The notes under the pieces: model-generated
Databases searched by the model: none
The model's input: only the letters and a program-made list of their open reading frames with translations
What the model was told of the DNA's origin: nothing
Position numbers and translations under genes: made by a program
Part shown: positions 7,090 through 22,099 of the stretch, in pieces
Layout: every line of letters begins with the position of its first letter
Numbering within the stretch: position 1 is the first letter of the stretch
NCBI GenBank assembly: GCA_020429915.1
Contig: JAGQKV010000018.1
Location: forward strand, 197,770 to 247,215
Origin: Candidatus Omnitrophota bacterium
GTDB taxonomy: Bacteria; Omnitrophota; Gorgyraeia; Zapsychrales; Zapsychraceae
Length of the DNA: 49,446 bases
Reading direction: 5' to 3'

Positions 7090-9042
7090 TTAGGGTCCGG
7101 ACGGGACCGCGGATTGCTGCTTGAGAACCGAGAGCAATTTGCGTTTCAGGGCCCGGGCCTTGCTGTGATCGGGGTTTAATTCCAAAAGTCTATTATAATC
7201 ATCCAAGGCCAAATGTAAATCACCCTTTTTGAAGCGGGTGGTGGCCCGGCCGAACAAAGCGCTCTGATTCTCCTTATCCAGTTCAATGGCGCGGCTGAAG
7301 TCATCCAGGGCCAGTTCAAACTTCTTCAACCGGGAATAGACCTGGCCGCGGCTGGTGTATCCGCGGACGAAACTCGGCCGCAATGCGAGCGCCCGGTCGT
7401 AATCTTCCAGGGCGCGGTCATACCTCTTCATCTGGTAATACTTGTTGGCGCGGTTGTGAATGGCCTCGACCGCCTGCGGATTAAGAGTGATGACCCGGTC
7501 ATAATCGGCAATCGCCCTCGCGTAGTCCTTGACGTAGCTGTAGTAATTGCCCCGGTTGATGAGGGCCTCCTGATAATCCGGCATGATCTCAAGCGCCCGG
7601 TTAAAGTCCTGGATCGCCCGTTCGGGTTTTCCCAGCGCGAAATAGGCCATCCCGCGGTTGCTGTAGGCGGCGTGATTGCGGCCGTATTTTTCGATGGCCG
7701 TATCCAAATGGTGAATCGCCGTCTCCCACTGGCTCCTCTCGACGTAGGCGATCCCCAGGTTCATGTGCGGACGGGACTTCTCCGGCGCCTTGGCGATCAC
7801 ATCCTCCCACATCGCGATATCATCCGCCCATACGAAATTACGCTGATAGGTCAGCACGGCCAGCGTGAGGGCAATCACGGTCGCGGCGGCGAGGCATTTG
7901 CGCCGTGAGCGGAATGTCTTGAGGAGCCACGCGCTGATGCAGAGAAAAAATCCAAAGGACGGCAGGTACATGCGGTGTTCAAAGATCACGTGCTTGATGA
8001 CAATCACCGAGGACTCCACCGACAGGGTCAGAAAAAACCAGAAGATGCCGAAGGCCAGCAACCGGTTCGATCCCACGCGGCGGATACCGTAGGCAAAGAT
8101 GGTCACCAGCAGGACAAAGCACCAAAAGGTGCGCGGTTCCAGCATCGAGTACGAGGCGGGAAAATCGTACAGCAGGTTCTGTCCCACGGGCAGGAACATC
8201 AAACTCAGATACGTGCAGATGACCCGGAATTGGGTCATCAAATAGACCATGTTGTACAACTCATCCCCCCGGTGCGAACCGGAATGGTGTTGAATGGTCA
8301 GCATCGCGGGGGCATTGAACTTGAAGATCGCCGGCACGATCAACAGGAAAAGTCCGGTGCCGCCTACGATCCGCCAGTCAATGCGCCCGCCCTTCCCCCG
8401 CGGACGCACAAAGAGAAACTCCACCAGTAAAATCGCCACCGGCAAGGTAATGGTAATCTGCTTGGTGAACATCCCCAACAGCGCGCTGAAGCCAGCTGCG
8501 GCAAAGAAAGGCAACGCCCGGCGGGGATACAGCCGCGCCTGCAAATAGCACCACACGCTCAACAGATAAAACAGCGTCGCCAGTGACGCAAAACGCTGGG
8601 CCATGTAAGCAACGGCCTGCGTTTGCATCGGATGCGCCGCAAAAAGCATCGCGGTGATCAGTGCCACCAGCTCCGCATCCGGCCGCAGCGGATCATCGCG
8701 CATCTGTTCGCAGCGGAATAACAGGCGCACCAATGACCACACCAGGAGTATGTTGACCATATGAATGCCGATATTGGTTACGTGAAAACCGAGCCAATTG
8801 TAACCGTGAATCGCATAATTCAAGGCAAAGGTAAAATAACCCACAAAACGGGCCGGGTGCTTCCACGCGTGCCAGATGGCATGGATGTCGGTAATGTCGC
8901 GGATATTCGCATTACTCTTGATGTACCCGATATCGTCGAAAATCGGCGGACCGTGAAGCACATTGGAATACATCGCACCGGTGGCTATCAGCAGAGCGGC
9001 CACGGCCAGCCGGTAGCGGTGAGTTTTAAGCCAGTCCGTCAT
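7090..9042 (-). CDS. TMTC-like membrane glycosyltransferase with C-terminal TPRs
   Basis: The 650-aa product starts with a short basic segment and a membrane helix. An outside loop follows with D36-D37 (IFDDIGYIKSN), then about nine to ten further helices up to about residue 405 and about six TPRs to the end (YSNRGMAYFALGKPERAI is a typical unit). The helix motif HPMQTQAVAYMAQRFASLA marks the second subfamily seen in this window. The acidic pair in the first loop is the expected catalytic feature of GT-C O-glycosyltransferases, so the likely activity is sugar transfer at the periplasmic face of the inner membrane. Its ATG overlaps the stop of the upstream paralogue (ATGA). Donor and acceptor cannot be read from the sequence. 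Confidence 0.85.
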   Translation of the reverse strand: MTDWLKTHRYRLAVAALLIATGAMYSNVLHGPPIFDDIGYIKSNANIRDITDIHAIWHAWKHPARFVGYFTFALNYAIHGYNWLGFHVTNIGIHMVNILLVWSLVRLLFRCEQMRDDPLRPDAELVALITAMLFAAHPMQTQAVAYMAQRFASLATLFYLLSVWCYLQARLYPRRALPFFAAAGFSALLGMFTKQITITLPVAILLVEFLFVRPRGKGGRIDWRIVGGTGLFLLIVPAIFKFNAPAMLTIQHHSGSHRGDELYNMVYLMTQFRVICTYLSLMFLPVGQNLLYDFPASYSMLEPRTFWCFVLLVTIFAYGIRRVGSNRLLAFGIFWFFLTLSVESSVIVIKHVIFEHRMYLPSFGFFLCISAWLLKTFRSRRKCLAAATVIALTLAVLTYQRNFVWADDIAMWEDVIAKAPEKSRPHMNLGIAYVERSQWETAIHHLDTAIEKYGRNHAAYSNRGMAYFALGKPERAIQDFNRALEIMPDYQEALINRGNYYSYVKDYARAIADYDRVITLNPQAVEAIHNRANKYYQMKRYDRALEDYDRALALRPSFVRGYTSRGQVYSRLKKFELALDDFSRAIELDKENQSALFGRATTRFKKGDLHLALDDYNRLLELNPDHSKARALKRKLLSVLKQQSAVPSGP

Positions 9043-11264
9043 ATACTCCCCATCGCCTTTCTGGTCCGGTCAAAATAGGTGTCGTCGACGTCGTAGCCGA
9101 GATCACGCGCTTGCTTGAAATCGGCCAGCGCCTGGTTGAAGTCACGCAGCTCATAGTGACTCAGTCCGCGCAGCATAAAGGCGTCGGCCGCCCGGGGGGT
9201 CTGTTTCAGGTAGAGGTCGAGTTCCTGCGCCGCGCGACGGAATTCTCCCTGCCGGTAGTAAATTTTTCCGCGCTCCAGGTAAACCTTGACCAGCCCGGGC
9301 CGCTGCCGCGCGACCGCGCCGTAATCATCCAACGCCCCCGCCAGCCGCTGCAGGCGTGTGCGCACATAAGCGCGTTGCAGATAAACCTCCGCGGTCCCTT
9401 TCCCGCGCGCGATCAAGACAGTCAAATCTTCCTCGGCCCGTTCATAGCGGCCGAGGGCCTGAAAGACCTGCGCGCGGTTGCGGTACAGCTCAGCCAAGGC
9501 CGGATCGTGGGCAATACCCGCACTGAAACTCTCCAACGCACCGGTCAGGTCGTTGACCCCCATCAGCAATGCCCCGCGCACATTGTAGAATTTGGCATCG
9601 GCATCAACGTCCTTCATCTCATTCAGCAGGCGCAGCCCGTCGGCGTAACGGCCGAGGTGCCCCATGACCAATGCCCGGTTGACGGTCGCACCGTTCATAG
9701 TCGGATCGAGACGGTGCGCTTTCTCAAAGTCGTCCAGCGCCTCGTCGTAACGTTTGGCCTGCAATAGGATCGCACCGCGGTTCAGATAGGCCCCGGCCCG
9801 CCGCGGATTGAGTTTCAACACCCGGTTGATGTCATGCAGGGCAAGTTCCAGATTTCCGATGTCCAGCAGCAGCTGACTGCGGTTCACGTACGCGAGTTCA
9901 TAATCCGGATCGATGAGTACGGCCTTGTTAAAGTGGTCGAGCGCGGCCGCCGGATTGCCGGCTTTCAGATACTCGTAAGCCAAATTGTAGTGCGCCCGTG
10001 CGTTGTCCGGTGTCTTGCGGACAACGTCGGTCCACATCGCCACCCCGCTCTGCCACACGCGGTTGCGCTGGACCGTCAGCACGCTCAATACCGCGATCAG
10101 CCCGGCAGTGACCGCCACCCGGGCCGGCCGGGACCGGATCCCGGTATGCAACGCCCAAGCGACCGCCAGCAACAGCCCCACGGACGGCAGGTAGGCACGG
10201 TGTTCAAAGATCACATGCCGGATCGGGATCACCGTCGCTTCGACGAGCAACACGATAAAAAACCACAAAATACCGACGCTGACGAGCCGCGCGCGGTCCC
10301 ACAACACCAAGGCCGCACAGAACAACAGGGCCAGCACTGCGGCACTGACTAACATCCGCGGGTCCGTCCACCCCGCGGTCACCGGGAAATCATAAAGCAG
10401 CGTCTGCCCGGCCGGCCAGACCAGCAACCGCAGATAAGTCGCCACCACCCGCGGCTGGGTCAGGGCGTACGTGCCGGCGTTGATAATATCGCCCGGATGA
10501 TTCCCGTTTTCATGGGTAATGCTCAAGATGCGATCCGCACGGAAATGATACAGTGCCGGGATCACCGCCCCCGTCAACAGCGCCGTAATTAACAGGCCTG
10601 CCGCGGCCCCGGGCCGGCGACGATCAAAGAAGGCGAACTCCAGTAAAATAATCATCAGCGGGACGGTCAATGCGATTTGCTTGGTAAACATTCCGCACAG
10701 AGCACTGATCAAAGCCGCCGCCCACCACCCGGCGCGTCCCGTCCCCACAGCACTCAAACGGCCGCGCAGGTAGCACCACAGGGTCGCCAGATAGAACAAC
10801 GCCGCCAACGAAGTAAACCGCTGGGTAATGTAGCTGACGGCTTGCGTGTTCAACGGATGACAGACAAACAAGGCGGCCGCGGTAAAGGCAAGTCCGTAGG
10901 CGCCGTCAGTCCCCCGCCCGCGTTGAACGGCCGGGGTCCCGGCGAGCGCCAGGACCAACGCATACACCAGTAGCGTATTGATCAGATGGATCAGGAGATT
11001 GACGATGTGAAAACCGAACGGCTCCGGCCCGCCGAGCCGGTAATTCATCCAGAAGGTCAGGTAGGCCACCGCCCGGCTGGGATGCGGCAGGGCCGCCCAA
11101 AGTCCGGCCGGACTGCCGGCGCGCAACGCCTCATTGTGGACGATCACCGGGTGGTCATCAAACTGAAAGTCCCCGCTCAGACTGTTGATATAAACCGCGA
11201 GTCCGAGCATAACCAACATCACGGGCAGCAAGACCTTGGGCCAGAAGGAAGAATAGGTGATCAT
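9039..11264 (-). CDS. TMTC-like membrane glycosyltransferase with nine-TPR tail
   Basis: The 741-aa protein has the same plan as its neighbours: an N-terminal membrane helix, an acidic loop with D36-D37 (FQFDDHPVIVHN), about ten membrane helices, and a tail from about residue 415 to 735 holding about nine TPRs, the longest tail in the family here. The helix motif is HPLNTQAVSYITQRFTSLA. The FDD-x-x-x-I-V-x-N pattern closely resembles the first luminal loop of eukaryotic TMTC proteins. No clear ribosome site precedes the ATG at 11264, which lies only 7 bases after the DCC gene stop, so translation may depend on coupling. It is likely a lipid-linked-sugar-dependent protein glycosyltransferase; substrate unknown. 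Confidence 0.85.
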   Translation of the reverse strand: MITYSSFWPKVLLPVMLVMLGLAVYINSLSGDFQFDDHPVIVHNEALRAGSPAGLWAALPHPSRAVAYLTFWMNYRLGGPEPFGFHIVNLLIHLINTLLVYALVLALAGTPAVQRGRGTDGAYGLAFTAAALFVCHPLNTQAVSYITQRFTSLAALFYLATLWCYLRGRLSAVGTGRAGWWAAALISALCGMFTKQIALTVPLMIILLEFAFFDRRRPGAAAGLLITALLTGAVIPALYHFRADRILSITHENGNHPGDIINAGTYALTQPRVVATYLRLLVWPAGQTLLYDFPVTAGWTDPRMLVSAAVLALLFCAALVLWDRARLVSVGILWFFIVLLVEATVIPIRHVIFEHRAYLPSVGLLLAVAWALHTGIRSRPARVAVTAGLIAVLSVLTVQRNRVWQSGVAMWTDVVRKTPDNARAHYNLAYEYLKAGNPAAALDHFNKAVLIDPDYELAYVNRSQLLLDIGNLELALHDINRVLKLNPRRAGAYLNRGAILLQAKRYDEALDDFEKAHRLDPTMNGATVNRALVMGHLGRYADGLRLLNEMKDVDADAKFYNVRGALLMGVNDLTGALESFSAGIAHDPALAELYRNRAQVFQALGRYERAEEDLTVLIARGKGTAEVYLQRAYVRTRLQRLAGALDDYGAVARQRPGLVKVYLERGKIYYRQGEFRRAAQELDLYLKQTPRAADAFMLRGLSHYELRDFNQALADFKQARDLGYDVDDTYFDRTRKAMGSI

Positions 11265-12119: not shown

Positions 12120-12383
12120 ATGTTACGCCGGACGTTTCGCATCACCGGACTTACTGTCCTGATCTTTATGATCACGGTCTCGCCGTTTGCCACGGCGCAG
12201 ACGGTGCAGTACCACCTCTCGGTGACCATCCCCGCCATCCCCGGTGTCAACGTCCCGCCCTTTGAGGACGAACGGGATCCGGCACTGGCGCTTTCCCACA
12301 CCGATACCGGCCTGGAGATGATCGAGGAACACATCCGGCTCGGTGACCGCGACATCCTGTTGCGGACATATGTGGTACGATAA
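12120..12383 (+). CDS. 87-aa secreted protein of unknown function under leader control
   Basis: The ATG at 12120 has GAGGAGG seven bases upstream. The product has a clear signal peptide (LRRTFRITGL core, cleavage likely after ATA, about residue 26) and a mature part of about 60 residues. That part starts QTVQYHLSVTIPAIPGVNVP, contains an acidic stretch (FEDERDP), and ends in LLRTYVVR. There are no cysteines after the signal peptide and no recognised domain. It is the only gene downstream of the riboswitch-like leader before a convergent gene, so the whole regulatory apparatus serves this small protein. It faces the end of the barrel-protein gene of the export locus, so an accessory surface or matrix role is possible but speculative. 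A longer start at 12105 is possible but lacks the ribosome site. Confidence 0.75.
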   Translation: MLRRTFRITGLTVLIFMITVSPFATAQTVQYHLSVTIPAIPGVNVPPFEDERDPALALSHTDTGLEMIEEHIRLGDRDILLRTYVVR

Positions 12384-12533: not shown

Positions 12534-15500
12534 TTACTTAACGCTGCGCTTCAACGGAACGTGGAACATGAAGGTCCGCCCTTCCTGAACGGTGATCTTG
12601 TTCTTGAGACGGATCGTGGGAAGGAATTCGCGCGGCAGGGCGTTGACATCGATGGTAAGGATGTGATCACCGGGGGCAACGTCGTAGAATTGGTACACCC
12701 CTTCAAAATCAGCGGCCGCCACTTCGGAGCCGTCCAACCGCATCAATGCCTTGGCGATCGTGGGTTCGTTCGCTTCGTACTGCTTGTTGCCGTTAACATC
12801 TTCGAAAAACACTCCATAGACGCCGGAACGGATTATGAATCCGTAATCAATCACGTAGGTTTCTCCCTGCCGGACGGCGATATCCTTCATGAGGTACGAT
12901 TGCAGGGAGTAGCCCTGAGGCAGGCTGCTGAAATCCAGACCGGTCTTGATTTTCTTGGCGCGTGCCGTGCCGCGGTAGGTCCCGCGCGGGCCGGTGGTGA
13001 CGGTGGAATTTCCGATCCGGACCACGATCCCTTCTACTCCGGGTTCTCCCGGATCTTGGATCTCGTTGCGGTTAAAGTCCTTGTATACGGTTCCACGCAC
13101 GGTGGCCGTCGGATCCCAGCGGAACATCGTCTCCCAGTCCGTGCGCATCCCGAAACGCACATCGGCGTCATTGTAGGCCGGCTGTGTGGCCGACTCGCTG
13201 AGGACATTGCGCAGACTCCCGTCCAAAAAAACCTCCACCTGCGGGACCGGCCGATAACTGATACCGATGCTGCTGCGGATGGTATCGGATCCCGCCAAAA
13301 AGCTGAAACGCCCTTCGGTATTCTCCTCGTTGCGATACGAAACACTGGCCCGACCGCTGAGCTTTTTCCCGAAATTACGCGCGTAGCTCACCCCCATGCT
13401 CATAACATTAGGTTCGTTGCGCTCGCGCGGTTGTTTGACCTCCACATACGACTGTTCGTAATTGGCGAAAAAGCTGAGCCGGTCGATCAAGGGGATCCGG
13501 ATTCCCGCCCCCACGCCGTAACGGTCATACTCGGACGTCGGGCTCTTGTCGAAGCGGCTGAGCTGCCCGCTTAACGTCACATACGTCGACAGATCCCGTT
13601 CGAAGATAATCCGGAACGTTTTGGATAGCGAAGTGTTCCAGCGGATCGACAACCGCGGGGAAATCAGCTGCGGCGTATGCGAAAAAAAGAGAGAATTGCT
13701 CCAGGTGTACCCGTGGCCCAATTGTTGCGTATAAACGGTTCCCAGATCGATATTGATATTATCCGGGTCGTCCGGATTCTTTTGTTCGCGATCCCGGTAC
13801 AAATCGAGATTTGTGGTCAACTGTCGGTCTTCCGGCCGGTAATCGAAGATGATGTTGCCGCCCACCTCCCCACTGTCTGCCGGGCGCGAGCTGATCGTGG
13901 TGAATCCATCCTGCAGATCGCGCAGATTGACCCGCAGCCGGGCATCTCCCTCTTGATAGTCAGTCAGCAGCAATGTACCGAAGTTATGTTCATCGTAAGC
14001 GACTTCCAAATGAGCGTCCACCTCGCCGAAGCGGTTCTTGACTTCCACGGAAAAGACCTTGTCATTGAGAAAACGCGGGCGCTCTGTCCCGTGACCGCGT
14101 GCATAGTTGAAGGCGAATTGAAGCTCGTCCTCGGGAAACAGCAACACCCGTGCGCCTTCAATATACGACTTACGGACTTCACTGACGCCTTGTGAAGTCT
14201 GCAGAAATACGGCGCGGTCCTGGCCCTTAAGATAACTAAACTGCACCTTACGATCCAGCGCGAAACTATCGAATAAGACACCGCGGAAAAACCGTCCGGG
14301 CAACGACAGGTCGGAAAAACGCTTGGAGGCATCCCAACCGCGGATGGAAAAATCCTCGAACGGTCCCAGATTCGCGTTACTCAAGCCGAGGGTGCGGCCG
14401 GTATTTTCAGTGGAATCGGCAAAGCGAAAAAAGTTTGCGGATGCATCCAGAAAACCATAAGGCGTGTCTCCATAGATCCCGACCCACTGGGTGAAACTGA
14501 GGTTCTGTCTGTCCAGATTATGGGGACTGTCTCCCAAGTAAAAGCTACCCCAGTTATTTGAATAGCTAATCCGGAAGGGCGTCGCATGCCGTTCGAAGGC
14601 ATCGCCCGCCTGCTGGCTGATAGCGGCATTCGTTGTGGGAAGGACCCCTTTCAAATTAAACGTCCAGCGGCCGCGCTCATCCCAAATATGAAAAATTGTC
14701 GTTCCCCGACGGTTCATCGTGATCCGGACGCGATCCGTGGATTCCCGTTCCGCTGAACTGACTTCCGGATTAATAATCAAAAAACGCGTCACACCATCGC
14801 CTTCTAAAACCAGCGATTCGCCGAATTCGATCTCAAGTATGCTCCCGGGCTGCCGCTCCCAGAGTTCGTCATTCAGCCTAATGACCGCGGCCGTCCGGAT
14901 GACATCTTTCCCGTCACCAGCCCCCCCGCGCTGATCCTCCCTATTTTCAGTCCGAATTTGCTGTCGACGGTCGGCTGCGGATTCCGGTTCACTGGTCACC
15001 GCCTCGTCAGGGCCGACGTCAGTGGGCGGCGGGACCGGGATGCTGCGGCCGGCGGTCTGAGGGTAGCCGGTCTGCCGGTACTGAGCCGGAGGTTGTGCCA
15101 CGGTCGTCAGTGTACGAACGGCCTGTTGCTTGAGCTTCTGAGACTGAATGATCCGTGATACGTCGTTGGGACGCCGGGCGACCTCTTGCCGGGCGGCATC
15201 AATCTTACGTTGCCGCTCCCTTTCCAAACTCTCGCTGTCATTGCGGTACTTGGCCAGAATTGCGTCGACTTCCGGAGGATGATCCACGGTGTAGATCCGG
15301 CCCGAAACGTGTTCGGCGCGGATGGCGCTGACTTGTACCGGCTCGGCCTCAACGTGAAGAGTGTCGCCGTACTGTCGCAGACTGCGTTCGTCCGTCAACG
15401 GAGCGACCTGTCCGCGGCGGACGAGGTCGACGTGATGAATCAGTTTTTGAACCCCGGGCACCGACGGATCCACGTGATGGGCCGCCGCGTAGAAAAACCG

Positions 15501-15806
15501 GGCATTGCGGTAATCGCCCCGCATATAATATGCGGTGGCCATGTCAAAGTAGTGGCGGAGGGATCGCCGGTAATTGCTGAAGGCGGGAAGCTGCTCCAGC
15601 AGATCAAAAGGTTCTCGTTGCCGGGGGGCGGCGAAGTGGGCGGCCTTTATCAATGACAACGCGGCCGGAAAGTCCTCGTCCTCAAGTGCCAGAGTGGCTT
15701 TGATAATGTAGTCGCGATAATTGGACACACTTTCGGCATACACGGTCTGACCGCCGAGCAGGACGGCCAAAAAAAGACATACGAAGAATTGTTTGAAACG
15801 TATCAT
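12534..15806 (-). CDS. large outer-membrane beta-barrel protein, usher-like, with N-terminal TPR region and C-terminal SdrD/CNA-B-like domains
   Basis: The 1090-aa product has a signal peptide (cleavage near QTVYA, residue 24). A helical TPR-like segment (about 25-130) and a proline-rich linker follow. Next is a small domain (about 305-390: EIEFGESLVLEGDGVTRFLI, DRVRITMNRRGTTIFHIWD) resembling the pilus-formation N-terminal domain of CpaC/secretin partners. A long region of amphipathic strands (about 410-910) suits an outer-membrane barrel. The C-terminus has two CNA-B/SdrD-like sandwiches, each with a D-x-N-x-N motif (YKDFNRNEIQDPGEPGVEG; FEDVNGNKQYEANEP). Ushers of chaperone-usher systems have barrels with appended sandwiches, but I see no certain FimD/PapC signature. 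The start is the ATG at 15806; 15815 would be TTG. It is the last gene of a four-gene export locus. Function as a secretion pore or usher is inference. Confidence 0.75.
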   Translation of the reverse strand: MIRFKQFFVCLFLAVLLGGQTVYAESVSNYRDYIIKATLALEDEDFPAALSLIKAAHFAAPRQREPFDLLEQLPAFSNYRRSLRHYFDMATAYYMRGDYRNARFFYAAAHHVDPSVPGVQKLIHHVDLVRRGQVAPLTDERSLRQYGDTLHVEAEPVQVSAIRAEHVSGRIYTVDHPPEVDAILAKYRNDSESLERERQRKIDAARQEVARRPNDVSRIIQSQKLKQQAVRTLTTVAQPPAQYRQTGYPQTAGRSIPVPPPTDVGPDEAVTSEPESAADRRQQIRTENREDQRGGAGDGKDVIRTAAVIRLNDELWERQPGSILEIEFGESLVLEGDGVTRFLIINPEVSSAERESTDRVRITMNRRGTTIFHIWDERGRWTFNLKGVLPTTNAAISQQAGDAFERHATPFRISYSNNWGSFYLGDSPHNLDRQNLSFTQWVGIYGDTPYGFLDASANFFRFADSTENTGRTLGLSNANLGPFEDFSIRGWDASKRFSDLSLPGRFFRGVLFDSFALDRKVQFSYLKGQDRAVFLQTSQGVSEVRKSYIEGARVLLFPEDELQFAFNYARGHGTERPRFLNDKVFSVEVKNRFGEVDAHLEVAYDEHNFGTLLLTDYQEGDARLRVNLRDLQDGFTTISSRPADSGEVGGNIIFDYRPEDRQLTTNLDLYRDREQKNPDDPDNINIDLGTVYTQQLGHGYTWSNSLFFSHTPQLISPRLSIRWNTSLSKTFRIIFERDLSTYVTLSGQLSRFDKSPTSEYDRYGVGAGIRIPLIDRLSFFANYEQSYVEVKQPRERNEPNVMSMGVSYARNFGKKLSGRASVSYRNEENTEGRFSFLAGSDTIRSSIGISYRPVPQVEVFLDGSLRNVLSESATQPAYNDADVRFGMRTDWETMFRWDPTATVRGTVYKDFNRNEIQDPGEPGVEGIVVRIGNSTVTTGPRGTYRGTARAKKIKTGLDFSSLPQGYSLQSYLMKDIAVRQGETYVIDYGFIIRSGVYGVFFEDVNGNKQYEANEPTIAKALMRLDGSEVAAADFEGVYQFYDVAPGDHILTIDVNALPREFLPTIRLKNKITVQEGRTFMFHVPLKRSVK

Positions 15807-15948
15807 GCCGCTCAACCGTAGGCTGCCGGGTAATGGTCCCGTAAATTCGCTGCATTGGTCAATCCTTCCCTTTTACAAGCCCGTCTCCGACGGCGGATGG
15901 TTTCTCGTATCACTGGGGTGATCAATGCCTGGCTGTGTAAAACGCGCG

Positions 15949-16743
15949 CTAGTCCCGAACTTGCCTGATTTGATACTGTCCTGTATTGAATTTCGTCAAA
16001 TCGATTTCTTTAGTAACACTTTCCCCTCCACCCAAGTCGAAGGTGATCACCATTGTGTAGTCGCCGACGGCAAGGGCTCCATCGAGCACCACGGAGAATT
16101 CCGCCGCCGTATCCGGCATGACATACATCGTGTCGATTTCTCCGCGATCGGCGGGGACGCCGTCGTTATCAACCAGGTAGTACACCCCCCGCGGAAAGAG
16201 AAAGACATCGCCCTCATTCGCGAACCGCCCGCGAATAAATTCATCCTGAACACGAACTTCGTCGACCACAGCCGACTTGTCGCTGTCGACCGTTTCCAGG
16301 TAGAACAACGACCCCAGTCGCGTGATAATATTGACCCCTGTGTTTTGCGGTGACGCTGACAGGGACCTTTCGAAAAAAAGGACTCCGTAGTGGCCGCCGG
16401 TCGCATCCTCAGGGACCTTGATTGTATAGCGGATTTCGCGCTTCCCCTGCGCGGGGACGGTCAACACCTGGGGAGAGTACGTTACCCACTCTCCCATCGA
16501 ATATTTCGAGGTCCCCGGGGGAGTAAAATTCTTTTTCCCGGTGTAGGGCGGGACATATTCAAAGTCCTGCCAATACACGCGGATATCGACGTCCTGTTGT
16601 CCGGTGTTGTGAATATTCATCCCGTCCACCACCGTCTCTCCGGGAGTGACGGTCAATTGGACCCGACTCTCTTCCATCAGCAACTGAGCCCCCGCCTTCG
16701 TCGCAAACAGGACCAAAAACGCTGTCATTAGAATTCTTTTCAT
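15949..16743 (-). CDS. PapD-like periplasmic chaperone (two Ig-like domains)
   Basis: The 264-aa protein has a signal peptide (cleavage near KAGA, residue 19). The first beta-rich domain begins with a strand (RVQLTVTPGETV). It then carries SPQVLTVPAQGKREIRYTI followed by VPEDATGGHYGVLFFE, the pattern of PapD-type and DUF916-type Ig domains (proline, basic anchor, then V-P-x-x-x-x-G). A second sandwich (about 150-255) follows. Pilus chaperones complete the fold of subunits in the periplasm and deliver them to the usher. It lies after two secreted beta-sandwich genes and before the barrel gene, as a chaperone would. A DUF916-like surface-binding role is the alternative. Confidence 0.7.
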   Translation of the reverse strand: MKRILMTAFLVLFATKAGAQLLMEESRVQLTVTPGETVVDGMNIHNTGQQDVDIRVYWQDFEYVPPYTGKKNFTPPGTSKYSMGEWVTYSPQVLTVPAQGKREIRYTIKVPEDATGGHYGVLFFERSLSASPQNTGVNIITRLGSLFYLETVDSDKSAVVDEVRVQDEFIRGRFANEGDVFLFPRGVYYLVDNDGVPADRGEIDTMYVMPDTAAEFSVVLDGALAVGDYTMVITFDLGGGESVTKEIDLTKFNTGQYQIRQVRD

Positions 16744-16758
16744 AATCTCATTCCGGTT

Positions 16759-16789
16759 AAAAGAGGGGCGGCCCGACGGACCGCCCCTC
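16759..16789 (-). terminator. intercistronic terminator between subunit and chaperone genes
   Basis: On the minus strand GAGGGGCGG (16789-16781) pairs perfectly with CCGCCCCTC (16771-16763) around a 9-base loop, and TTTT follows (16762-16759). It lies 16 bases after the subunit stop and 16 bases before the chaperone start. It probably lowers expression of chaperone and barrel relative to the subunits, as in many fimbrial operons. Confidence 0.7.
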
Positions 16790-16804
16790 CTGAGTTGCCA
16801 TTAA

Positions 16805-17437
16805 TTACGGTACGTCAAAAGAAGCGGTAATTGTGAATGTTCCCGAGTACGTCCCGGTTGCATCGGCCGGCGTAAACGGAACCGCGTTTCCTTCTTCCAA
16901 ACCCGGATCGCCGGTGGCGATACCGAAACTGATCCGGGCAAAGCCGTTGGCGTATTGCGTTTCATCAAGTCCGCCTGATGTATTGGCCTCATCAAGGCTC
17001 TCGCCGCGAATCAGGTTGACGGTTTGTGTTCCGTTGCCGTTGTCCACGACCTCCAGATACGCCACTGTTCCATGTCCGCCCAGCCCGGAACCGTCATTCA
17101 AGGCACCGTTGGGATTGAAGGTGTCGACATATGCGAATTGAAGATCGGGGAATCCGGCACCGTTCGTGCCGACATCGACGACCCAAAAGTAGGCCGGCAG
17201 AAAGATGCCGAGACCCGCGTCGAGATCCAGTTGCCCGAAATCCAAAGTGTCGAATCCCGCGGCCTGTACTTCAAAAACGTCCGGGGTTCCCGGGGTGACT
17301 TTGCTGACTGTGTAAACGGCCCCGTCAGCCGGCGGGATATAGGCATCGATAAAAAAATCGGTCTGTGCCGCTGCCGGTGACGCGGCCAAGACGACCGCCG
17401 TTACTCCGGAAATTATAAATAATGCAAGCTTTCGCAT
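16805..17437 (-). CDS. secreted beta-sandwich protein, candidate major subunit
   Basis: The 210-aa product has a signal peptide (cleavage after PAAA, about residue 24). The mature chain is acidic, glycine- and threonine-rich and beta-predicted, with DFFIDAYIPPADGAVYTVS at the start. It ends in ATGTYSGTFTITASFDVP. This C-terminal strand (G-x-Y-x-G-x-[FI]-x-I-x-x-x-F) recalls the last strand of chaperone-usher and spore-coat-U subunits. It also matches the module ends of the neighbouring 464-aa protein. There are no cysteines in the mature part. The ribosome site GTGAGGT precedes the ATG. The terminator directly behind it suggests this and the preceding gene are the most expressed of the locus. 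No family is firmly recognised; a cohesin-like fold is another possibility. Confidence 0.7.
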   Translation of the reverse strand: MRKLALFIISGVTAVVLAASPAAAQTDFFIDAYIPPADGAVYTVSKVTPGTPDVFEVQAAGFDTLDFGQLDLDAGLGIFLPAYFWVVDVGTNGAGFPDLQFAYVDTFNPNGALNDGSGLGGHGTVAYLEVVDNGNGTQTVNLIRGESLDEANTSGGLDETQYANGFARISFGIATGDPGLEEGNAVPFTPADATGTYSGTFTITASFDVP

Positions 17438-17555
17438 GAATTACCTCACTTGGTTATTGGGTTTACGGATAGTTGGCTTATTTCCCACGGCGTGCTGGGC
17501 CGCCGGAAATCAGATGTGGTGTTGGTTCACCTCCTTTTTTTCCCGATGTTGACGT

Positions 17556-18950
17556 TTATTTTTCCTCCAACGTGTAGCGAACGGATGTCCTGTAGTCCCC
17601 CGCCCGCATACGGGAATGGGGTCGCAAACGGTAGATTACACGAAAGCTGGCCGGAGACCCGAATTCATCCGAGTAATACATGACATGTTCACCCTCCGGG
17701 ACCGGGACAAATTTGGGATCGGTCACCCGGCCGCGGATATCTTTGGATAACTCCTGCTTGTAAGTAAAATTATCGCGCTCAAATTCCTCCCCCGCATCGT
17801 TGGTCAAGGCGGAACGGACATTCTGACTGACCAAATAAGGCTGTCCCGTGTTGGTGTTGACCGTGACCAGGACCTCTTTGTATTGCGGTTCGTCCGTCGG
17901 GAGCAGGCGTTGAAAAGACATTCCGCCGGGCGGATATTCGGTCGTCATTTCAAAGACCGGCGCGATGACGATTTCCAAATCCACGGGCAGTGCGTGCGTG
18001 GCGGTTTCGGTCTCGACGATGTACTGCAGGCGGCCATGGAATGTCCCGGCGGTCTGCGGCGGATCCTTTTCCTCGTTGATCCGGAAACGCATCCAGATTT
18101 CATCGGCCGCGGCGCTCCCCTCATAAATCAACTGCCGCTGACGGCTCAGCGGAACCGGCTGCGCAACGGACAGCTCGCCGAGCTCACCGCCGGTGGCCCA
18201 CAATTGGACTGTTCCCTCCCCCATATCGGTGTTGAGGTCATCCACGGGATAACGAACGACTTCCTGGTAAATACGCAGCTGCCCGCTACGGTTCCCGCTG
18301 AAACTAACGCGAAAATAGTCGTCTTGAAAGCCAGGATTGTCGGAGTATAGCCGTACGATGTCGGAGCCGCGGCCGCCCTCCCGGCGCACATCGAGTTCAC
18401 CCTCAACTTCCAGATACGCATTGAGTATCCGTTCGTCCACACGGCTGCCGCTCCCGATGGGACGTACGGTGTAAAGGATTTGACCGGAAAAATTTCCGGA
18501 GCGGGTAATGCGGTCGGCGTCGACCTGGTAGATCAAGGTCAAACCGTCACTGAGACCATTGTTGGTCGAGGTGTAAATCAGTTGCTCGGTATAACCGAGT
18601 TCCTCTACGGTTTGCAACTCCACGGATCCGGCACTGTTGGATCCGGTCAGCACCGAAACCCGAATCGTATCGTGGTCGAGGGCCTCACCACGCTCATTGG
18701 TGAACGGCTGGCTGACGCGTTGAAAAACCTGATACTGCGTGGCTTCGGTGGAGTTGATGCGGATGCGGACTTCCTGGGTCGTGGCCGCGGGCAGATCGAC
18801 GCGGCCGAAACGAATGCTGTTTCCTCCGCTCACGGGGGTGACACTCAGATTCAATCCGGCATGCGCTGGCGCCGCACACAGCAAAATGGTTGTCACCGCC
18901 AACAACTGCAGATATTTGCGACCAGGCTTGTAAAGGTTTGTCCGGAGCAT
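17556..18950 (-). CDS. secreted protein of three tandem beta-sandwich modules, candidate multi-domain or tip subunit
   Basis: The 464-aa product has a signal peptide (cleavage near PAHA, residue 31). It then has three similar modules (about 32-170, 175-310 and 320-464). Each contains a strand like QLIYTSTNNG / QLIYEGSAAA / HVMYYSDEFG. Each ends in SGNFSGQILYTV / AGTFHGRLQYIV / AGDYRTSVRYTL. The first and third share TQEVRIRINSTEATQYQVFQ-type and FTNERGEALDHD / LTNDAGEEFERD segments, so they arose by duplication. The module ends resemble the C-terminus of the downstream 210-aa subunit. It is the first gene of the export locus. A tip adhesin or concatenated pilin is the favoured idea, without direct proof. 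There are no cysteines in the mature part. Confidence 0.7.
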   Translation of the reverse strand: MLRTNLYKPGRKYLQLLAVTTILLCAAPAHAGLNLSVTPVSGGNSIRFGRVDLPAATTQEVRIRINSTEATQYQVFQRVSQPFTNERGEALDHDTIRVSVLTGSNSAGSVELQTVEELGYTEQLIYTSTNNGLSDGLTLIYQVDADRITRSGNFSGQILYTVRPIGSGSRVDERILNAYLEVEGELDVRREGGRGSDIVRLYSDNPGFQDDYFRVSFSGNRSGQLRIYQEVVRYPVDDLNTDMGEGTVQLWATGGELGELSVAQPVPLSRQRQLIYEGSAAADEIWMRFRINEEKDPPQTAGTFHGRLQYIVETETATHALPVDLEIVIAPVFEMTTEYPPGGMSFQRLLPTDEPQYKEVLVTVNTNTGQPYLVSQNVRSALTNDAGEEFERDNFTYKQELSKDIRGRVTDPKFVPVPEGEHVMYYSDEFGSPASFRVIYRLRPHSRMRAGDYRTSVRYTLEEK

Positions 18951-19768: not shown

Positions 19769-22099
19769 TTACCAGGCCGTCACATGAACGTCGTCCACGT
19801 GCCCGTCTTCCGACCCGAAGTTCATGAGCCCCCGAAAGCGCAGCTGCAACTGGGATATCCCCGTCACCTGCACGCTCTCCGTAATCCATGCATCCTCCGG
19901 ATCCACATCCCCGCTGAGCCGCCGCATTTCCTGCCAGCTCTGTCCGTTGTCGGTGGAGATGTCGAACGCAATATACTCGCCGAGGTCCAGATAACTGCGG
20001 ATCAACCAAGTGAATTCCACCGTGGCGTTGTCATGCCCGGCCAGGCTGATGGCGACGGATGTCAGAGCCCCGTTTTCCGTAGGGCCGTCGACATTGGCGG
20101 AATACCGGCCTTCGCTTGAGCGGATAAAAGAATCCTGCCAATCACTCTGTCCGTCTTCGGTCCACAACCCGTTCCACTCCCCGTTTTCGAAGCCGTCGGT
20201 AAAGACTTCCACGCTGCCCCCCGGGGGAGTGACGTCGGCCACATTGACGGTGGCGGTATCGCTGTCGGTGGCGCCGTCGTTATCGGTGACCGTCACGCTG
20301 ACCGTATAATTTCCCGCAGTGGCATAGGCATGCTGCACAGAAACACCGCTGCCGCCGGTACCGTCGCCGAAATTCCATGCGTACGAGCTGATTGTTCCGT
20401 CGGGATCAAACGAGCCCGAGGCATTGAAGGTGATGCTCTCACCGGCATCTCCTGAATACGGCCCGCCGGCATCAGCGGACGGGGCCTGATTGGCACCGGT
20501 GATAGCCGCCGTGGTCGTAGCCGCGGCCGAACTGGCCTGTCCGTCGTTGACCGTTAAGGATACGGTGTATGTCCCGGCGGCGGAATAAGAATGCTGCGGT
20601 GTGGCGCCGGCACCCGAAATTCCGTCACCGAAGTCCCACAGGTATGTCAACGGATCCCCGTCGGGATCAGACGAGTCGCGGCCGTCGAAGCCTACGGACT
20701 GGCCGCTTATTCCCGTATAGGGTCCGCCCGGATCTGCCTGGGGCGGATTGTTGACCGGCGGTGGGGATCCTCCGGAATACTTTAAGGCCGCCTCGGCGTC
20801 CAGCAGCCCCCAACCGGTATCGGGATCCCAACCCGGCGCGCCCAGATCCTTGGCCGTGTTTTGCAATGCCGCCCGAATTTCGTCGGGGGTAGTGGCTACG
20901 CCCGCGGCAATCAACAATGCGGCCACCCCGCTGACATGCGGAGCCGACATGGAAGTCCCTTGATAAAGGTAATAATTAAAAGTCGAGCGGTCTTCCGGCA
21001 GGAAAGACTGCTGCAGGACACCGTCGAGGATTCCGTCTCCGTTCTGGTCGACGTTAAGATCCCCTCCCGGGGCCATGATGTCGAGCTCCGCGCCCCAGTT
21101 GGAATAAAAGGCGCGCGTCTCATCGTAACGCGTGGCGCCCACCGCAATACAATACTCGCCGTAGCGCGCCGGATAACCCACTTCGTCGCGGCTGTCGTTG
21201 CCCGCGGAGCATACCAGCGTAACGCCCCGTTCGTGCGCGTACTGGCAAGCGTTTCGGATGGCCGTTGAAGAAAACCGGCTTCCCAGACTGAGGTTAATGA
21301 TATCCGCCCCGTTGTCCGCCGCCCAGATGATCCCGTCGGCCACATCAAAAGAACTTCCGTAACCATTGGCGTTGATAACCTTGACCGGCATCAACGTCGT
21401 TTTAAAGGCGATACCTGCCGCTCCGGCAAAGTTATTGGTATTTTGAGCGATCGTACCGGCGACATGCGTCCCGTGGCCGTAGTCGTCATTCGGGTGATCG
21501 TCATTGTCGACAAAATCGTAACCCGGAGCGAAGCTGGTCTGGGACAGTTCCGGCGCCTGATAGTATTCCTCCGAACGAAATGAATTGATCACATCGGTGT
21601 AATCTTCGTAGGCGATCCCCGTATCCACGATCGCGACGACGACGCCGGGGTTCCCACCCCGATTCACGTTCCAGGCGTTGCGCATATGGATCCCGCCGGT
21701 ACCCGAACTGTCGAAATTCCACTGGTACGGAAACCATTCATCATTCGGTGTGTAATGCAAATGCACCTTATAGTTCGGCTCCACATACTCGATATTCGGG
21801 TCCTTACGGCACTCCTCGATAAAATCTTTCATGCGCCGGCCGGCCGGCAGACGGTAACGGTTGATTCCCAAACGGGCGTTGCGCCGCATTTGATGCAGGC
21901 CCAGCCGCGCGGCCAACCCCTGGCGCGCATTGTCGGGAACGTCTTCCCGGTATTTGATGATAACTTCACCTGGCATATAATCGACGCCTTGCCAAGGATT
22001 GGGTTTGGTTTTGAACGGCGGTTGCTGGGCGCTGGCGGGAAGCGCTTGGCTGATGAGAAATAAAAAGATGAGGATCAGGGAATTTAACTTGGTTGTCAT
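19769..22099 (-). CDS. exported subtilisin-family (S8) serine protease with two PKD domains
   Basis: The 776-aa product has a signal peptide (cleavage after ASA, about residue 24) and an inhibitor-like propeptide (about 38-115). The catalytic domain has all key residues: D159 (AIVDTG), H209 (YGHGTHVAGT), oxyanion N301 (SAGND) and S383 (GTSMSAPHVSG). Two PKD domains follow (about 450-535 and 540-620; WDFGDG and WNFGDG motifs). A C-terminal beta-sandwich (about 630-776: EVFTDGFENGEW, VEFTWLIRSYLDLGEYIAFD) resembles carbohydrate- or protein-binding P/immune-inhibitor-type modules. It should be active outside the inner membrane, degrading or processing proteins. AAAGGA stands before the ATG. There is no PEP-CTERM or T9SS tail. 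Confidence 0.93.
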   Translation of the reverse strand: MTTKLNSLILIFLFLISQALPASAQQPPFKTKPNPWQGVDYMPGEVIIKYREDVPDNARQGLAARLGLHQMRRNARLGINRYRLPAGRRMKDFIEECRKDPNIEYVEPNYKVHLHYTPNDEWFPYQWNFDSSGTGGIHMRNAWNVNRGGNPGVVVAIVDTGIAYEDYTDVINSFRSEEYYQAPELSQTSFAPGYDFVDNDDHPNDDYGHGTHVAGTIAQNTNNFAGAAGIAFKTTLMPVKVINANGYGSSFDVADGIIWAADNGADIINLSLGSRFSSTAIRNACQYAHERGVTLVCSAGNDSRDEVGYPARYGEYCIAVGATRYDETRAFYSNWGAELDIMAPGGDLNVDQNGDGILDGVLQQSFLPEDRSTFNYYLYQGTSMSAPHVSGVAALLIAAGVATTPDEIRAALQNTAKDLGAPGWDPDTGWGLLDAEAALKYSGGSPPPVNNPPQADPGGPYTGISGQSVGFDGRDSSDPDGDPLTYLWDFGDGISGAGATPQHSYSAAGTYTVSLTVNDGQASSAAATTTAAITGANQAPSADAGGPYSGDAGESITFNASGSFDPDGTISSYAWNFGDGTGGSGVSVQHAYATAGNYTVSVTVTDNDGATDSDTATVNVADVTPPGGSVEVFTDGFENGEWNGLWTEDGQSDWQDSFIRSSEGRYSANVDGPTENGALTSVAISLAGHDNATVEFTWLIRSYLDLGEYIAFDISTDNGQSWQEMRRLSGDVDPEDAWITESVQVTGISQLQLRFRGLMNFGSEDGHVDDVHVTAW

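Follow-up and report, generated by a model that had tools for sequence, protein, structure and literature searches.

A conserved gene set of the Omnitrophota that may build a surface fibre in the manner of chaperone-usher systems

The window, which is the whole 49,446-nucleotide stretch of a Candidatus Omnitrophota contig analysed here, holds four consecutive genes on its minus strand that the original prediction, made from the sequence without database searches, had described as a possible export system of the chaperone-usher kind. We found all four open reading frames within the predicted span and as they had been described. TRI (17556..18950, read as 18950-17556; 464 amino acids) is a secreted protein with three homologous modules, and we propose that it is a pre-joined fibre tip. 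SUB (16805..17437; 210 amino acids) is a secreted subunit with an N-terminal strand and a conserved last strand. CHAP (15949..16743; 264 amino acids) is a periplasmic chaperone-like protein with two immunoglobulin (Ig)-like domains. BARREL (12534..15806) has 1,090 amino acids if translated from the ATG at 15806 (an upstream TTG gives a form with 1,093 amino acids) and combines a TPR region, a pil_N-like domain, a presumed outer-membrane barrel, and C-terminal SdrD_B domains; it is the proposed export platform. In our view, this locus likely encodes a system akin to the chaperone-usher pathways, which assembles a surface fibre through donor-strand exchange.

Among the 56 genomes that we searched, the window's own included, 30 have a match to BARREL. 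In 24 of 30 related loci, TRI, SUB, CHAP, and BARREL lie next to each other in the same orientation; the six exceptions are five loci cut by contig ends (L036, L037, L040, L056, and L057) and one (L039) that is a marginal match to a domain only. Because the genes that flank these four vary among the loci, we conclude that the four form a unit. Some loci have extra SUB genes, while the window's own genome has a single match each to the CHAP, TRI, and SUB profiles. Across the phylum, the BARREL profile matches 291 of 385 genomes (E ≤ 0.001), a tally that is inflated because it includes many matches in the TPR or SdrD_B domains only. By hand count, the best E is below 1e-40 in 102 of the 385 genomes, with several of these matches being of partial length (e.g., in G061 and G372). 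An alignment scan of genome contigs for CHAP gave 46 loci, of which three (L106-L108) are weak. The remaining 43 comprise 39 whose titles name Omnitrophota or Omnitrophica and four with different titles, namely "bacterium" (L063), Candidatus Elulimicrobium (L075), Candidatus Aceula (L076), and Planctomycetales (L081); the genomes of L063 and L081 are placed in the window's genus and family.

A few loci are arranged in other ways. In L112, one contig holds two BARREL genes within 20 kb, with subunit-like genes close by, and L101 has three CHAP-like genes and several SUB-like genes with no BARREL within the stretch examined. The CHAP-like proteins of the three weak loci (L106, L107, and L108, two of which are titled Patescibacteria) score 39-58 bits and, by eye, have a hydrophobic C-terminal stretch. 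Their genes adjoin subunit-like secreted proteins, without a BARREL, and might represent a monoderm counterpart.

The predicted fold of CHAP consists of two Ig-like domains and is near both WxLIP (DUF916/DUF3324) and the alpha-class chaperone CfaA. Profile comparisons relate it to pilus chaperones: the CHAP profile aligns with EcpB/EcpE with E of 3.8e-7 and with eight classical chaperones with E of 1.3e-4 (reversed controls gave 0.31-0.54), and for scale, the two known chaperone classes reach only 4.8e-4 against each other in the same profile comparison. FimC alone gave no profile match to CHAP. Against 54 targets, the next scores after CHAP itself, EcpB, and EcpE were for SUB (28.3 over 23 columns) and FimA (25.8 over 41 columns), and in a search of PDB sequences, EcpB was the sole match (0.014). 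In parts of a paper on EcpB (PMC4654587), Pro60 is said to be invariant across the chaperone superfamily, and Tyr169 is given as the second residue that anchors the C-terminal carboxylate of the subunit. The aligned residues in CHAP are Pro91, which is a proline in 22 of 25 members (serine in two and valine in one), and Tyr207, which is conserved in all 25. As modelled, CHAP is a two-domain PapD/WxLIP-like protein, and both its paired Ig-like domains and its alignment to EcpB/EcpE agree with the PapD-like chaperone that had been claimed.

WxLIP is the best structural match to the CHAP model as well as the commonest Pfam family among the CHAP members (20 of 25), and the Gram-positive WxL clusters likewise have small and large secreted partner proteins. 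The locus might then encode a WxL-like surface complex with no growing fibre: CHAP would be the WxLIP of a diderm, in stable association with TRI and SUB at the surface or the cell wall, and BARREL would serve as a pore or an anchor. However, the CHAP model ends in a strand (residues 257-263) and does not have the C-terminal membrane helix of WxLIP, and it superposes on CfaA with a root-mean-square deviation of 4.0, as compared to 7.4-7.8 for WxLIP. Also, no WxL domain is among the Pfam families listed for the 25 SUB and 25 TRI members, and unlike in the WxL clusters, an outer-membrane protein belongs to the unit. We consider a WxL-like complex to be distinctly unlikely. The system probably does link WxLIP and the chaperone-usher proteins structurally.

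The domains that had been read from the BARREL sequence (TPR, pilus-formation-like, and CNA-B-like) correspond to matches in Pfam: SdrD_B (1.7e-9) is above the cut-off, and T2SS-T3SS_pil_N (2.9e-4) and TPR_2 (0.02) are below it. Among 25 BARREL homologues, SdrD_B was found in 25, pil_N in 22, and TPR_2 in 13 (all at E ≤ 1). Residues 395-912 contain roughly 20 amphipathic segments, five of which are long enough for two strands (a rough estimate), and on this basis we presume that BARREL forms an outer-membrane barrel. A search of PDB sequences with the BARREL profile returned chiefly TPR designs. The absence of a clear FimD signature, which had also been pointed out, holds: the window's BARREL has no usher family among its Pfam matches at E ≤ 1, and the usher family PF00577 was found in 0 of the 385 genomes of the phylum, in a search that did detect the E. 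coli usher used as a control. There is also no secretin among the 7 families that match the window's BARREL at E ≤ 1, and no usher or secretin family over the 25 members, among the matches listed (25 of 39 families). In having no visible secretin domain after the pil_N domain, BARREL is unlike the secretin systems (type II secretion, or T2SS, and Tad).

A possible relationship to ushers emerged when profiles were compared to each other. The profile of 58 BARREL members aligned with a profile of eight ushers with E of 5.6e-5 over 429 columns (the reversed controls gave 0.078 and 0.0071), and the alignment was colinear from the barrel to near both C-termini. With split profiles, the C-terminal parts scored 25.8 over 109 columns forward versus 16.5 reversed, and the barrel parts scored 27.0 forward versus 20.3 reversed; the N-terminal part of BARREL gave no match to ushers. 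The full eight-usher profile was the only usher comparison that stood out. The 25-member BARREL profile did not match EcpC or FimD as single sequences. Against the 58-member profile, the scores of eight single ushers were 17.3-32.9, which overlaps the range of five control barrels (LptD, FhuA, BtuB, PgaA, and BamA; 16.1-26.3) and that of reversed ushers (18.6-29.4), and we rejected single sequences as a way of identifying BARREL as an usher. The profile evidence for homology to ushers is suggestive only, and the homology is unproven.

The same fibre logic could also operate if BARREL did not descend from ushers and an unrelated outer-membrane protein with TPR, pil_N, and SdrD_B domains had taken over the role of the platform. 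This would account for the absence of the usher family from the window's protein and from the phylum, and for single ushers being indistinguishable from LptD, FhuA, BtuB, PgaA, and BamA; furthermore, to our knowledge, N-terminal TPR and pil_N-like domains do not occur in ushers. On the other hand, the usher profile aligns in order through the barrel and the C-terminal domains, and the C-terminal parts align even on their own. We view an unrelated platform as a real possibility, which on balance we doubt. Another suggestion would be that BARREL merely neighbours the surface proteins and acts as a general exporter, perhaps of polysaccharide, as the TPR-barrel protein PgaA does. BARREL does have an N-terminal TPR region and a barrel, and PgaA was the top-scoring of the five control barrels (26.3), but this score is inside the range of the reversed ushers. 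Also, no polysaccharide synthesis cluster constantly adjoins BARREL in the related loci, while CHAP and the subunits are constantly linked to it, even in distant loci. We consider a general exporter to be very improbable.

The original prediction had likened TRI to a multi-domain tip, and this idea is supported by the homology of the three modules (E of 2.4e-18 for modules 1 and 2, 8.3e-18 for modules 1 and 3, and 5.2e-9 for modules 2 and 3) and by the existence of separate-gene versions in other loci. Module 3 also has a weak match to WxLIP_PGBD (0.0027), and module 1, to judge by its sequence only, has no N-terminal strand. In 7 of 20 distant loci (L112-L117, which belong to other classes of the phylum, and L118, which belongs to the window's class), paired single-module genes lie beside CHAP and BARREL. 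In all seven of these loci, one protein of the pair has a strand after the signal peptide that resembles the linker before TRI module 3 (for example, HVSFEIKPTF in L114 and VDLEIVIAPVF in the window's TRI), and the gene nearer to CHAP starts like TRI module 1, without an N-terminal strand. This is the pattern predicted if the N-terminal strand is donated to the preceding subunit and the tip has no such strand. The pairing of a module that has a donor-like strand with one that does not is consistent with polymerisation, which is another point against a stable WxL-like complex.

SUB has no Pfam family at E ≤ 1, but its last strand follows a conserved pattern, GxYxGTLTxTA, in an alignment of 25 members. 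Searches of PDB sequences with the SUB and TRI profiles yielded nothing useful, and an alignment of SUB with the K-12 subunits covered 17 columns and was discarded. A strand motif at the mature N-terminus was found in 71 of 87 rows of the SUB group and in 29 of 40 rows of the SMALL group (SMALL is a fifth protein of the locus), counts that include some contigs twice (e.g., L041 and L064) and that depend on a grouping which puts at least three SMALL proteins in the SUB group and four SUB rows in the SMALL group. Elsewhere, the same motif was found in 39 of 296 other open reading frames with a signal-like start and in 7 of 79 TRI rows, 11 of 83 CHAP rows, and 10 of 78 BARREL rows; its rate in shuffled sequences was 0.09-0.20. 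We also noticed an array of about six subunit-like genes ahead of CHAP and BARREL in L119 (118-5599, plus strand), and one of these subunits matches SEF14_adhesin weakly (0.0039, below the cut-off).

SMALL (12120..12383, plus strand; 87 amino acids) was not part of the earlier four-gene account. Its gene lies beyond the 3' end of BARREL, on the opposite strand and convergent with it, and encodes a secreted protein with a donor-strand-like N-terminus, which we propose to be a capping or anchoring donor strand. In the window, AGGAGG lies six bases 5' of its ATG. The mature protein of about 60 residues has an N-terminal strand such as YKISVTIP or VQYHLSVTIP, which resembles that of SUB, then a variable central part, and it ends in a conserved stretch such as LLRTIVVK. 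Because the 23 sequences from which we built the SMALL profile were selected by the strand motif, the conservation of the strand inside this profile is not independent evidence. Among the 38 named loci in which the end of BARREL is present, a search with the profile found a convergent SMALL in 34, a count that leaves out L066, L072, L073, L095, and L101, which were not assessable; there was no convergent match in L080, L084, L088, and L100. Outside of the 20 contigs that, matched by their length, had also supplied training sequences, SMALL was convergent in 14 of 18 loci. In 20 further distant loci, it was convergent and scored above 20 bits in four (L123-L126).

We propose that the system operates in the manner of chaperone-usher systems, using an outer-membrane pore that lies outside the usher models. 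TRI, SUB, and SMALL, given the signal peptides read from their sequences, would reach the periplasm, where CHAP would hold subunits whose Ig fold is short of one strand. BARREL, in the outer membrane, would receive the chaperone-subunit complexes and thread the fibre outward. TRI would be exported first, as a pre-joined tip: the absence of an N-terminal strand from module 1 would suit a tip, and the linker before module 3 may play the part of the strand that extends the N-terminus of separate subunits in other loci. SUB would then be added repeatedly, with every copy donating its N-terminal strand to the previous one. SMALL, which has a donor-like strand but not the length needed for an Ig domain, might fill the last acceptor groove and so end or anchor the fibre. 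Parts of a study of another kind of donor-strand filament (PMC9715654) describe the need for a self-sufficient terminal subunit, and by analogy, we conjecture that SMALL meets this need. The probable use of the fibre would be attachment to surfaces or to partner cells.

Two observations weigh against this proposal. First, the usher family PF00577 is absent from the window's own genome as well as from the 385 genomes of the phylum. Second, Arg89 of EcpB/CsuC, which anchors the C-terminus of the subunit, is replaced by Gly120 in all 25 CHAP members, a comparison that depends on the hhalign register and on a 20-residue offset for the signal peptide. Because we looked for the usher family and for this chaperone hallmark and found neither, we do not file the system as a proven member of the chaperone-usher group. 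The interpretation offered by the original prediction survives in its chaperone, its multi-domain tip, and its lack of a FimD signature, although it overlooked SMALL.

The alpha-class chaperone-usher pili (the E. coli common pilus, EcpABCDE, and CFA/I with CfaA) are among the closest known systems. Besides lacking the usher family and having a glycine in place of Arg89, the Omnitrophota locus differs from them in that TPR, pil_N, and SdrD_B domains flank the barrel, the tip has three modules, and there is a small, convergent, donor-like protein. The classical and archaic pili (Fim, Pap, and Csu) are set apart by their PF00577 usher, as well as by the lack of a profile match between CHAP and FimC alone and of any Pfam match for SUB. 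A bolder interpretation is that the system is a third kind of donor-strand fibre machine, found throughout the phylum: its TPR/pil_N-like/barrel/SdrD_B platform would not descend from ushers, its tip would be a single chain of three subunits linked through their own donor strands, a stand-alone donor-strand protein encoded by a separate, convergent gene would end its fibre, and its chaperone would link the Gram-positive WxLIP with Gram-negative pilus chaperones. Taken as a whole, we think that this is rather unlikely.

Other genes of the window lie near the operon. Two adjacent genes on the minus strand (7090-9042 and 9039-11264) encode large membrane proteins with TPR-like repeats at the C-terminus; one of these proteins belongs to a cluster of 13 related open reading frames over three loci, and copies adjoin the operon in L041 and L042. 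Upstream of the operon, past a methyltransferase-like gene, 19769-22099 (minus strand) encodes a secreted protein that, by eye, is subtilase-like and has PKD-like repeats.

The Omnitrophota are uncultured, mostly ultra-small bacteria that are suspected to live on other cells. A large survey of the phylum lists type-4a pili and Tad pili, along with giant proteins, as factors of attachment, and its main text contains neither the word usher nor the word fimbria (PMC10066038). More broadly, we found no description of this gene set in the open-access literature on Omnitrophota, chaperone-usher systems, WxL/WxLIP proteins, or pili, although such an absence is weak evidence. The gene set is a further candidate attachment organelle of the Omnitrophota. 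It also bears on the origin of chaperone-usher pili, as CHAP resembles both the WxLIP proteins of monoderms and the pilus chaperones of diderms. And since the tip occurs in a fused form as well as in separate genes, and a small protein resembles a donor strand, the strand logic of the proposed fibre can be read from the sequence and is directly testable.
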